From positions 70,896,696 to 70,960,695 of the forward strand of contig CM060188.1 in assembly GCA_030549335.1 (NCBI GenBank): a DNA stretch of 64,000 bases, written 5' to 3'. Below the pieces are notes generated by a model. The model saw only the letters and a program-made list of their open reading frames with translations, did no database searches and had not been told where the DNA came from. How positions within the stretch are numbered: position 1 is the stretch's first letter; each line of letters begins with the position of its first letter. This DNA comes from Pontederia crassipes (taxonomy: Eukaryota > Streptophyta > Magnoliopsida > Commelinales > Pontederiaceae). Made by a program: the position numbers and the translations under genes. Positions 49,626 through 54,706 of this stretch are shown here, piece by piece.

Positions 49626-49729
49626 AAAATATACTTCATGTGATATAATTTATTTGGATTAAAAGATACAATATTTTTCGTCTATACTATATGAATAAAT
49701 GGAAGAAAAAAAGGTCAAGATAACTCACT

Positions 49730-50350
49730 TTAAGGCAGCAACTTCCCTGCCCGGAAAACGGCAAACTTTGATGCGCTCGAATAGGAGTACGGTATCCCGT
49801 TCTCCTTGAGGAATCCTTCGAGCAGCTCTTTGGCCACCTCCGGGTCGGTCGTCTCGCACTCCAACTCGTAGCTCGTCCCGAAGTCATAGCGCGTCTCGTC
49901 GAGCTCCAGCGTCAGCCCTTCCTTCCACCCGTGCACGGCCCTCACGTTGCGGAACCCCCCGAGGCACACGAAAGGCGCCTCCTTTCCCTCCAATCCGAAC
50001 TCCTCGACCACCCTCCGAGCGATCCGTGACGAGCCGGCCATGTCGGCGAGGCGCCAGGGCTCGGCAACGCAGGCGCGGCCGAGGGAGGGTTCGATCTCTT
50101 CCTCGTCCTCCTCAACTCGACTGACGCCGTCTACGAGGCGAGCCTTGGCCTTGAGGGAGAGCACGCATCGGGCGTCGTCGTCGTAGAAGCGGACGCGGAG
50201 GACGGCGAGGCGGGAGGAGAGCTCTCCGGCGGCGCCGTCGAAGAAAATGTTCTCTTGGAGGTGAGTGCGGAGGTGAAAGGCGGCGAGGGCGTCGGAGAGG
50301 CGCTGGTGGGCGGCCGCATCCGGGAGGCGGAGCTTGACCTCGACCTCCAT
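49730..50350 (-). CDS. TTM3: Triphosphate tunnel metalloenzyme 3 (CYTH domain tripolyphosphatase)
   Basis: A single coding exon of 206 residues, close to the roughly 210 of Arabidopsis TTM3. It starts MEVEVKLRLP with the CYTH signature E-x-E-x-K at residues 2-6, and continues with acidic and basic tunnel residues such as RFYDDDARCVLSLKAK, LELDETRYDFGTSYELECE and SASKFAVFRAGKL. The enzyme hydrolyses inorganic tripolyphosphate with Mg or Mn. In Arabidopsis it is translated as the second cistron of the CDC26 mRNA and assists polysome loading of that transcript. Here the ATG lies 11 bases after the CDC26 stop, so the same arrangement holds. A donor site just after the stop suggests a spliced 3' UTR. 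Codon usage is GC-rich, like CDC26. Confidence 0.95.
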   Translation of the reverse strand: MEVEVKLRLPDAAAHQRLSDALAAFHLRTHLQENIFFDGAAGELSSRLAVLRVRFYDDDARCVLSLKAKARLVDGVSRVEEDEEEIEPSLGRACVAEPWRLADMAGSSRIARRVVEEFGLEGKEAPFVCLGGFRNVRAVHGWKEGLTLELDETRYDFGTSYELECETTDPEVAKELLEGFLKENGIPYSYSSASKFAVFRAGKLLP

Positions 50351-50361
50351 TGGGTGAGGGT

Positions 50362-50613
50362 CTAGCTGTGGGGCGGGTGGTGGAGGCCGATGCGGTGGGC
50401 GATGGCGGCGGGGTCGAGCGGGGCGGAGGAGTCGATGAGCTTTTGGAGGGGGAGGGGGTTGGGATTAGGGTTAGGGTTTTGTGGAGGGAGGCGGGATTTG
50501 GAGGAGGAGGAGGCGGCGGCGGCGGCGGCGGCGGCGCGCTGGCGGAGGGCTTCCTCGAGCTCGTCTCTGTCGTCCACCGTCACTTGGATCTTGCTGGGTT
50601 TCCTTCTCAACAT
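50362..50613 (-). CDS. CDC26: CDC26 (APC12), anaphase-promoting complex subunit, upstream cistron
   Basis: Eighty-three residues, starting MLRRKPSKIQVTVDDRDELE, which is the CDC26 N terminus that binds and stabilises the TPR groove of APC6/CDC16. An alanine-rich segment follows (27-34), then serine, an unusual NPNPNPNP run (46-53) and the conserved C-terminal IAHRIGL. CDC26 is part of the ubiquitin ligase that degrades cyclins and securin. The gene is co-linear with TTM3, 11 bases apart, with no room for a separate promoter. Both are therefore expected from one mRNA, as shown for Arabidopsis. Most family members are 55-85 residues, so the length fits. The first ATG of the leader is used. Confidence 0.95.
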   Translation of the reverse strand: MLRRKPSKIQVTVDDRDELEEALRQRAAAAAAAASSSSKSRLPPQNPNPNPNPLPLQKLIDSSAPLDPAAIAHRIGLHHPPHS

Positions 50614-51244
50614 CCCTCTCTCTCCTCTCTCTCTCTCTACCCTCCCCTCTCCGTGAGGCGTGAGCCACAGAACAAAATGCGGGTGAAAGAAAAAGTGGGA
50701 CGAAATAAATTATAATTTTTTTTAAAAAATAAATTATAATTTATCTAATTTTATGCATTGTTAAAAACCTGAAAACAAAAAAAAATCCCGAAAAATATTT
50801 TTAACATGATTCAAAAATAGGATAAGTTTTTAGAAAATATTGTAATTTAAATTAATGCCCCCTAATGAAAATAAAGAGAACCACATTCTAATTTTTCTTA
50901 AAATAAGTAATAATTACAATATTATTTATATTTCTTTAGATAATAATCTAGGTGTGTTCAGTAAGTCGCGTCGACTTGTGAACTCGATGACTCGATCCGA
51001 TCCAAATTTGATCCGAAAGCCTCGACTTTTTTATTTTATTTTTAAATTTTAGTTTTCGGCTTATATTTTGTATAAATAATAAAAAATAAATACGTAAAAT
51101 ATTATTAAATATTTAACACATTATTTTATGTTTTTTAAATAAAATATTCTATAATATTTTTTATATTAAATAAAAAAAATAAGAAAACTTTTTTTAAAAA
51201 AAATAATGGTCTAATAACTCGATCTAGACCCGACTCGGCCCCAT
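50614..51244 (-). promoter_or_regulatory. CDC26-TTM3 leader and promoter
   Basis: A short leader rich in GA/CT (about 50615-50665) precedes CDC26. Upstream, the DNA turns abruptly AT-rich (50700-51240), including GC-poor tracts with TATA-like sequences (TTATAATTT near 50710-50745). The LINE begins at about 51245, so any distal promoter is limited to roughly 600 bases or has been displaced by the element. Confidence 0.4.
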
Positions 51245-54200
51245 CATAAACATGAGCCTAGCAGAAGATTTCAAGGATTTTATTGATGAGCTGGGTTTCT
51301 TTGATTTTCCTGTACCAAACTGCAAATACACTTGGAGGAGTACTGCATCACCGCAGGCTAAGTCCAAACTTGACAGATTCTTGGAATCAGTGGAACTTCT
51401 TGAGGCCTTTCCTCTAGCCTCTGTCAAAGCATTAGAAAGACCATTCTTCGATCACACACCTCTTCTCTGGCAAACTAATGAGGGAAGAGATTTGGGACTT
51501 ATTTCAAGCTTGAGAAAGCATGGCTTATGGAAGAGGGTTTTCGGGAGATGATTAATGAGAAATGGAAAAATGTCCCCGAGTCCACATCAGCGACACGCAC
51601 GTTTGCTGAAAGATTATCAAGTCTCTGAGCTTCTCTCCAAGTGTACAAGAGGCAAATTAAGGAGGAACGCTCGCGAAGAAGAGCCGATGCCTTGGCTGCC
51701 ATAACTCAATTTGACCGAATAGAAGACAATAGGGAACTCTTAGCACAAGAGAGGATTGACAGGAAGAGTCACCAAGAGATTGTAGCTGAGGAGGACCGTA
51801 AGACAGAAATTCAGTGGCGCCAAAGATCTCGTCAGCTCTGGCTTCGAGAAGGTGACGCAAATACTCGTTATTTTCATATGTGCGCTAGTAGTCGACGTCG
51901 ATCCAACCACTTGGACCGACTACTAGTTGGTGACATGGAGATTACAGGAAGAATTCCAGTTGGAGAAGCAATTGCTCAACACTTTAAGGACTTCACAAGA
52001 CGTCGTCCACCCAGAGAATGGTTATGGAATGGCCGAGATATGCCACAACTATCTGAAACTCAAGCATCTGAGCTTGTGCAGGAGTTCTCAGAAGAAGAAA
52101 CCCTTCGGACACTTCGAGACTTAAAAGGTGAGGGTGCGCCAGGCCCAGATGGCTTTCCTATTTTTTTTCTTTCGTGAATTTTGGAGTGTTATTGGCAAGG
52201 ATGTCATGGCTGTAATCAAAGAGTTTGCTGCTGGAAACTATGAGTTTGAGAGATTGAATAAATTCTTTCTCTTTCTCATTCCAAAGAAGACATCAGCTGA
52301 AAGAGTTGAGTTCAGATCAATTGCACTTTCAAATGCCATCTATCTTATAGTGGCCAAAGTTCTTGCAAATCGTCTACGGGTGGTATTGGGCTCCCTTATA
52401 CATCCGGTCCAATCAGCATTCATCTCAGGTCGATCTATAATGGACAGCTTTTCAATGGCAGCCGAAATTATTTCTTTCTAGAGACAAATAGGCAAACATG
52501 AGTTTCTTTGGAAAGTCGACTTCTCCAAGGCATATGATTCCTTAGATTGGTCATTCATATGGAGCTCCCTTCAGCGACTTGGCTTCCCAAACGGTTGGAT
52601 CTCTTGGATGAAACGGTGTGTATGCACTGTTTCTTTCTCTCCTCTTATTAATGGCGGTCCTGTTGGTGGGTGGGTACAACCCTAACGTGGAGTTCAACAG
52701 GGGTGTCCGCTGACCCCTATGTTGTTTGTTCTTGTTGCTGATGCTTTGGCTAGATGCACACTCTCAGCTTGCAATGAGGGCATTCTCTCTGGTTTTTGCC
52801 CAATCCCAAACCAAGGTACACTTGTCCCTTTGTTACAATATGCAGATGATACCTTGTTCTTTATAGAAGGCTCTGAGGTGGCAGCAAGAAGGATTGCTTT
52901 ACTCATTGACATTTTTGACGACTTTTCGGGCCTTTCCATTAATCATTCCAAGTCATCATTCATACAATTTGGCATGGATACAGAAGAAGCAAGTCGGTGT
53001 TCTCTGGTGCTCCAAACAGCTGTCTGTAGTCTTTCTCTACCCTACCTCGAATTACAACTCTCGGACAAAAAGTTACTATACAAAGATTTGACTCCAGTTA
53101 TTGAGCGGGTGGAGAGACGACTAGAATGATGGAGTTCAAGACTTTTATCGCGTGGTGGTAGGTTGATTTTAGTCCGCTTAGTGCTGTCAGCAATTCCTGT
53201 GTATTTCATGTCCCTCTTTCAGATGCCTATTGGTGTTTGCAAACACATTGATGTCTTAAGGAGGAGGTTTTTTTGGAGGCATTCTGGTAGCACAAGTCGG
53301 GGTCTACATCTAGTTGCATGGTCAGAAGTGTGTAGGACATAATCAGAGGGTGGGTTGGGTGTCCGAGAGCTTCAAAAGATGAATGATGCACTCTTGTCAA
53401 AATGGACATACTGATTATTGAGCCAATAACAAGATCTTTGGTCAGTTATCATACATGCTTGCCATGGTACGTCTCCACTTGACAATAGGACAACATCGTC
53501 CCAGGGCCATTCGTCTTGCTGGAAGGCCATATTGTCAGTTACCGCAAAGCTTCAATGATTCTTCTCCCCATCCTTAGGATCAGGTACAATGTTTCGCTTC
53601 TAGGAGGATGCTTGGGCTCTTCCACTCCCCTTTCGGTGTCTTTTCCACGATTAGCTGCCTTAGCACAAGATCGACAGGCTACTGTTGCTGATTGTTGGTC
53701 AGAATCCTTACTGTCTAATGGTATTTGGACACCTCTCTTTGTCTCAGCGCTATCAGATCAACGAGTAGATGACCTCCTGTGCCTATTAGAGAGGTTGAAT
53801 GGGTTAACACCAGACAATTCCAGACGAGACTCTTGGGTATGGACTGCAGGTCAATTATCAGTCAATGTTGTATATAAATTGTTGGATGAGGATAATAGGA
53901 CGAATGATGATGAATTGCAGATGGATTGTAACCTTATCTGGCGACTAAAAATTCCTCTTCATATTAAAATCTTTGCATGGCTTCTTAGACGTCAACGACT
54001 GCCAACTAAAAACCTTATATCACAATGGTACCCTACAATAAGCATCACGTGCACATTGTGCGAGGATAGTGATGAGAATCCGGATCATCTCTTTTTTGAT
54101 TGCACTGTGGCAAGGGCTGTATGGAGGGAGGCAGGATGTCACTGGTTGAACACAACTTCAACACAGGATTTTTGGAGAACATTTCGATTTGGAGGTCATC

Positions 54201-54478
54201 AATGAGATATCATCATCTATACATCGAAGCAACAACGAGCAATCCCAATTGCATTCATGTGGTCCATATGGTCTCAACGCAATGGAGTCACATTTAGAGA
54301 CGAACGAATTTACACTGAAAATGTAGTGGCATTTGCTAAGCATATGGTGCATAGTTGGATGGTGTAATATAACATGCTTTATGTAATGATATGATCCAAT
54401 GTAACCTACTGTTGCATCAATAAATCTGGATGGTTGCACCTTTTGACAATCATCTTTCCCCTTCTAAAAAAAAAAAAA
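51245..54478 (+). mobile_element. 5'-truncated, degenerate L1-type LINE
   Basis: The left end starts inside the endonuclease domain (NCKYTWRS, AKSKLDRFLES, FDHTPLLW). Next come the linker and the reverse transcriptase (GAPGPDGFP, IPKKTSAERVEFRSIALSN, FSKAYDSLDWSF, GVQQGCPLTPMLF, and the catalytic YADD at about 52841-52852). The zf-RVT domain follows (WRLKIPLHIKIFAWLLRRQ, CTLCEDSDENPDHLFFDC). A 3' UTR leads to a poly(A) tail at about 54466-54478. ORF1 and the endonuclease N terminus are missing, as is usual after incomplete target-primed reverse transcription. Frameshifts (about 51552, 52165) and stops (near 52482, 52684, 53129, 53340) make it inactive. No clear target-site duplication was found. 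Confidence 0.92.
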
Positions 54479-54706
54479 TCGAACGATCGGGTGAGGTCAA
54501 ATCCTACTCGTAAACATCCTAATCTCTGCTCTTTTTGCCATCAGTATCATTATTAATATTACTTCTCCTTTAGTTGAAACTAAATTACTCTGGTATTAAA
54601 ATATAAAATGAATTAATATATTAGATTGTGAGATGATGGTTTATTGATTCGGAAATGAGAAAAAAATGAATTTTAGAATGTGATTCTGATTTTCTTTAAA
54701 TGAATA

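Follow-up and report, generated by a model that had tools for sequence, protein, structure and literature searches.

Organization of the CDC26-TTM3 locus

The window analysed here, the whole stretch of 64,000 nucleotides of Pontederia crassipes DNA, contains two adjacent open reading frames (ORFs) between positions 49730 and 50613. These ORFs and all elements of the locus given below are on the minus strand. The first cistron (50362..50613; 83 codons plus TAG) encodes CDC26, a subunit of APC/C, and the second (49730..50350; 206 codons plus TAA) encodes TTM3, a CYTH/triphosphate tunnel metalloenzyme protein. The spacer between the TAG and the TTM3 ATG (50351..50361) has a length of 11 nt and reads ACCCTCACCCA. 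The ORF calls agreed with the coordinates given in a preliminary description of this DNA, in which the strand was not stated, and confirmed its reading of an 83-residue CDC26 frame, a stop, 11 bases and the TTM3 ATG on one strand. The two identities proposed there were also upheld, as both ORFs scored above the Pfam cut-offs (PF10471, ANAPC_CDC26, 30.2 bits against a cut-off of 24.5; PF01928, CYTH, 70.7 bits against 23.2).

The CDC26 ORF also matched plant homologues, which read MLRRKP...HRIGL, and the N-terminal motif MLRRKP is present here. Compared with solved CDC26 chains, its N-terminus gave an E-value of 0.33 as a single sequence and of 1e-05 (3hym) with a plant profile. TTM3 could be aligned to solved proteins over residues 1-206 (6yp4) and 1-204 (3v85 and 5a5y). 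We take 6yp4 to be the 'adenylate cyclase' of Hippeastrum, an organism also suggested by the identical-looking record P0061. Among the matches listed, the closest TTM3 proteins were those of Canna indica (86%), Ensete, Musa, Curcuma and Zingiber (83-85%) and oil palm (83%). The structures 3v85 and 5a5y are reported as those of Arabidopsis TTM3 (AtTTM3; PMC4641920).

A single interrupted protein could be ruled out, because the CDC26 and TTM3 ORFs are in different frames. Beyond its TAG, the CDC26 frame continues for 76 unrelated residues before the next stop; upstream of its ATG, the TTM3 frame is open for 38 codons only, among which neither an ATG nor any of the seven near-cognate codons sought was found. 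A probable 5' leader, presumably spanning 50614..50680, contains no ATG and is purine-rich, with a GA repeat beside the CDC26 ATG. Further upstream, a TATA-like TATAAT motif (50709..50714), putatively functional, is present in both chromosome copies of the locus, and another TATA-like element lies at 50738. No AATAAA was found in either ORF or in the spacer; by motif search, the first one past the TTM3 stop is located at 49649..49654.

Second copy on C5 and genome-wide occurrence of CDC26

A colinear segment on C5 carries the same bicistron, encoding both proteins and again with 11 nt between the ORFs. The spacer reads ACCCTCATCCA there, which amounts to one change in 11 nt. Between the window and C5, CDC26 showed four synonymous and no non-synonymous changes, so that the proteins are identical, and TTM3 showed nine synonymous and one non-synonymous change, with one residue differing (13:1 for both ORFs together). 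The dS values between the copies were 0.067 for CDC26 and 0.063 for TTM3, and the corresponding dN/dS values were 0 and 0.034. C5 and C6 could represent two phased haplotypes or, in a polyploid, a homoeologous pair. The two segments also differ by an insertion of ~3.6 kb at about 50950-54520 of the window, which is missing on C5 and starts ~340 bp upstream of the CDC26 ATG. It is flanked by TAATCT at both ends, and a single TAATCT is present on C5. Its ORFs presumably resemble a LINE endonuclease/reverse transcriptase.

When the CDC26 protein was searched against the whole genome (1.13 Gb, 43 contigs), two places were found at an E-value of 5e-46, namely the two bicistrons, and the best of the remaining matches among the 11 listed had an E-value of 0.26. 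Coordinate comparison placed none of these weak matches within 500 kb of any TTM3-like gene. The Pfam CDC26 profile gave no match genome-wide at E<=0.001 and missed both bicistrons too; it is probably too short to attain this threshold in 1.13 Gb. With a second copy of equal spacing, and with CDC26 at two places only in the genome search, the arrangement is more than chance.

The preliminary description had taken the intactness of both proteins to imply selection on their linkage. This does not follow, because intactness, and the low dN/dS values that go with it, show selection on each protein separately and do not speak to adjacency. The question of linkage is better addressed by the fact that CDC26 never occurred without TTM3 in the genome search and by the adjacency reported in plants and algae, both of which bear on it.

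The same data concern the role of the first ORF. CDC26 has been catalogued as homology group 30 (HG30) of the conserved-peptide uORFs (CPuORFs), from which it might be read as mainly a regulatory uORF of TTM3 and not as a separate protein. We consider this highly improbable: the MLRRKP N-terminus is kept, no amino-acid change separates the two copies, and the genome search found no other CDC26. Moreover, the report that describes HG30 itself sets this group apart as putatively dicistronic (PMC3426882), and Arabidopsis ttm3 mutants are stated in a citing paper to be rescued by CDC26 expression. Since no other CDC26 was found in the genome search, the CDC26 of the bicistron presumably supplies APC/C in this plant.

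Comparison with known CDC26-TTM3 loci

The CDC26-TTM3 family is already known and has been regarded as putatively dicistronic since 2012, and the present locus adds another plant's copy. On the basis of Arabidopsis and rice cDNAs, At2g11890 was assigned to HG30 and described as a putatively dicistronic transcript, its uORF being homologous to cdc26 (PMC3426882). The work of Lorenzo-Orts et al. (2019), as represented in papers citing it, described the Arabidopsis CDC26-TTM3 transcript as bicistronic (PMC7943633, PMC6973038, PMC11892635), with CDC26 as the essential part and TTM3 seemingly dispensable in good conditions; transcript levels were up in NMD mutants, and translation of TTM3 raised CDC26. 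Conservation of the locus has been reported both for plants and for green algae (PMC11892635). The earlier statement that this bicistron is known from Arabidopsis and conserved among plants agrees with the citing papers, which add the green algae.

In Pontederia, the same two proteins are found in the same order as in Arabidopsis At2g11890, and the single transcript reported there is predicted here. CDC26 has 65 aa in Arabidopsis (PMC11291117) against 83 aa in the present copy, the extra length being apparently due to a longer linker rich in Ala/Ser and Asn-Pro. Like the green-algal bicistrons (PMC11892635, PMC11291117), the locus consists of colinear ORFs on one strand. It is very probably orthologous to the bicistronic CDC26-TTM3 gene of plants and, as homology and the 11-nt spacer suggest, expressed as one mRNA.

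Plant promoters often have no TATA box, and it is conceivable that TTM3 is driven by a TATA-less promoter within the CDC26 ORF, so that the locus would consist of two overlapping transcription units of tightly packed neighbours. This appears improbable, as the orthologues of Arabidopsis and Chlamydomonas have been reported to be bicistronic, and the two TATA-like elements found in the region scanned (50760-49200) both lie 5' of CDC26.

Indirect signs of linkage were seen in two other plants, in which the CDC26 and TTM3 records share the same longest-contig figure (67,408 in Thalictrum thalictroides and 6,676,301 in Spirodela intermedia), a figure that carries neither distance nor strand. A scan of viral contigs for stray plant or algal DNA, intended for comparison of the spacer, gave 70 pattern matches, none of which was confirmed.

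Proposed translation of the second cistron

To judge from the absence of intervening AUGs and from experiments in algae (PMC11291117), leaky scanning may well be the main route to TTM3, and it is our first choice, ahead of re-initiation. A single promoter upstream of CDC26 would give rise to one capped mRNA, starting upstream of 50613 and ending beyond 49730. Most scanning ribosomes would initiate at the CDC26 AUG and produce the small APC/C subunit, whereas some would leak past it and encounter the TTM3 AUG, the next one, 263 nt further on. As leaky scanning would require, neither copy has an ATG in any frame between the two starts, nor is there any in the 107 nt upstream; in the window copy, the closest ATG 5' of the CDC26 ATG is 145 nt away. 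It should be noted that such an AUG-free interval is unremarkable for an ORF as GC-rich as this one, because the probability of finding no ATG ranged from 0.25 to 0.89 under three simulated nulls (0.44 for a first-order Markov model, and 0.89 and 0.25 for synonymous recoding with local and flat codon usage, respectively). Shuffling the gene's own synonymous codons never produced an ATG (P 1.0), and this null has no power.

Alternatively, ribosomes might terminate at CDC26 on the same mRNA and re-initiate at the TTM3 AUG. This would suit the spacer, which is only 11 nt long in both copies and brings a terminating ribosome next to that AUG. Re-initiation works well chiefly when the preceding ORF is very short. 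With 83 codons, CDC26 is long for such a process, whereas leaky scanning requires no special element, and we regard re-initiation as rather unlikely.

Leaky scanning is backed by mutational studies done in vivo on bicistrons of algae, in which removal of the ORF1 AUG raised the output of ORF2 in two bicistrons other than CDC26-TTM3 (PMC11291117). The algal set has few AUGs before ORF2, whereas here there are none, and it is reported to tend to a weak context at ORF1 and a stronger one at ORF2. In contrast, the start contexts of the present locus are mixed: ORF1 has GGG-ATG-T (G at -3, T at +4) and ORF2 has CCA-ATG-G (C at -3, G at +4), so that position -3 favours ORF1 and position +4 favours ORF2. 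The preference at -3 runs counter to the algal tendency.

The +4 pattern could be followed in homologous proteins. The second residue of CDC26 was Leu in 100 and Ile in one of 101 rows, which means that +4 is not G; the start pattern allowed only Leu, Ile or Val, and the two rows dropped from the 103 were both Met-Leu. In TTM3, the second residue was Glu (+4 G) in 117 of the best 120 of 741 matches, and the other three were gapped there. Solved non-plant CDC26 chains, which we take to be those of human and fission yeast, likewise start with Met-Leu, and this start is therefore not a plant adaptation.

Several TTM3 records differ at the N-terminus. Three of them (P0044, P0058 and P0091, from Persea and two others, all among these 120 matches) have 74-81 extra residues that resemble the CDC26 region read in the TTM3 frame; in these cases, an in-frame ATG within the CDC26 region seems to be tolerated and to give an extended TTM3. 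Extensions of 31-42 residues, similar by eye to organelle targeting peptides, were seen in eight records from Magnolia, three Solanaceae, Aristolochia, Actinidia and two others (P0054, P0068, P0075, P0080, P0086, P0103, P0118 and P0124), and these could reflect either unlinked copies or the use of alternative first exons.

We also considered the lack of internal Met in CDC26 as a signature of leaky scanning and rejected it, because the TTM3 control was equally poor in Met. No internal Met was found in 97 of 101 CDC26 rows with a recognised start (P0210 and P0220 were dropped from the 103 rows; a stricter start pattern, by which 11 of 103 were dropped, gave 90 of 92), and, once the 9 of 120 rows that did not fit the pattern had been set aside, the first 70 residues of TTM3 had none in 106 of 111. 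The four CDC26 rows with an internal Met comprise two chimaera-like models (P0193 and P0217), a divergent copy (P0211) and a distant relative (P0223). In P0217, a cut-down CDC26 continues into a degraded TTM3-like stretch, and this record might derive from a bicistron that has decayed. In the variable linker of CDC26, taken from 91 of 103 rows, a single Met was counted over 3174 residues, whereas a TTM3 loop, taken from 103 of 120 rows, had 58 over 2743 residues (none in 64 of these 103 rows); the contrast is suggestive only, as the compositions differ and the rows are related. When dipeptides were used to gauge the potential for out-of-frame ATGs, CDC26 (97 rows) had 95 where 202 were expected, and TTM3 (111 rows) had 477 where 384 were expected; this test was dominated by conserved blocks in both proteins and is not relied on.

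Unlinked TTM3-like paralogues

Genome-wide, the CYTH profile gave at least 15 matches, of which 10 covered at least 164 of the 179 profile positions and five were partial (44-45 positions). The partial matches are perhaps exons of TTM1/TTM2-type genes. Of the 10 full-length matches found, two are those in the bicistrons and eight are unlinked; the latter (L003-L008, L024 and L025) are single-ORF CYTH proteins and lie pairwise on C7/C8 and C11/C12, making four pairs in all. The CDC26 N-terminal motif was sought at L003-L008 and was absent, and the genome-wide CDC26 protein search found no CDC26 near L024 or L025.

By alignment, both linked TTM3 copies keep the residues corresponding to E2, E4, R52, R54, K67, E81, E164 and E166 in the numbering used here, where K67, E81, E164 and E166 stand for K76, E90, E169 and E171 of AtTTM3. 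R54 is presumably a catalytic/metal-site residue of AtTTM3 as well. For E2, E4, R52, K76, E90, E169 and E171 of AtTTM3, catalytic or metal-related roles have been reported (PMC4641920). All eight unlinked paralogues have Asp in place of Glu2, Gly in place of Arg52, Leu in place of Glu81 and Cys in place of Arg134. The first three of these positions are important for catalysis by AtTTM3, Arg52 as the catalytic arginine and the two glutamates at the metal site. They all retain E4, K67, E164 and E166, and thus these proteins have been changed, not ruined. Their identity to linked TTM3 was 57-61% in the six compared (all but L024 and L025). The dN/dS values in the four pairs were 0.10, 0.13, 0.37 and 0.80, which implies faster protein change than in linked TTM3. 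In a tree of 20 sequences, all eight grouped together with a support of 1.0; the tree did not place their origin.

In the best 120 of 741 matches to TTM3 proteins, which are those closest to the linked copy and hence a biased sample, Arg52 was present in 119 and Gly52 in one, and Glu81 in all 120. Among the 10 full-length matches found in the genome, the canonical site occurred only beside CDC26, and CDC26 only beside a canonical site. On the basis of these substitutions, the eight unlinked paralogues are likely not canonical tripolyphosphatases. By alignment, a solved TTM3-like relative of plant type, 8h92 ('triphosphate tunel metalloenzyme 3-like'), has Phe at the place of Arg52 and Gly at that of Glu2. 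Changes at these two places are therefore not unique to this genome, although the replacements in 8h92 differ from those in the eight paralogues. Two apple TTM proteins have been reported to have adenylyl cyclase activity (PMC9582125).

A tentative and rather speculative explanation is that, in this lineage, active TTM3 is kept only in the bicistron, with CDC26 never alone, such that co-translation may preserve the enzyme, or the TTM3 ORF may keep the CDC26 mRNA translated, and copies that escaped would have taken on a new role other than that of a tripolyphosphatase. A plain alternative is that duplicates of CDC26 were lost for reasons of dosage and those of TTM3 drifted or acquired new roles, in which case linkage need not be the cause.

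Our data add a further monocot genome, in which two chromosomes carry the locus, to the known examples of a nuclear plant mRNA that is among the few said to encode two separate functional proteins. The side result on the unlinked paralogues appears to be the part most worth following: eight unlinked copies with altered active sites, set beside the linked copies, offer a natural experiment on what holds CDC26 and TTM3 together. If it is true that linkage preserves the activity of TTM3, or that translation of TTM3 protects the CDC26 mRNA, this would be testable across monocots.
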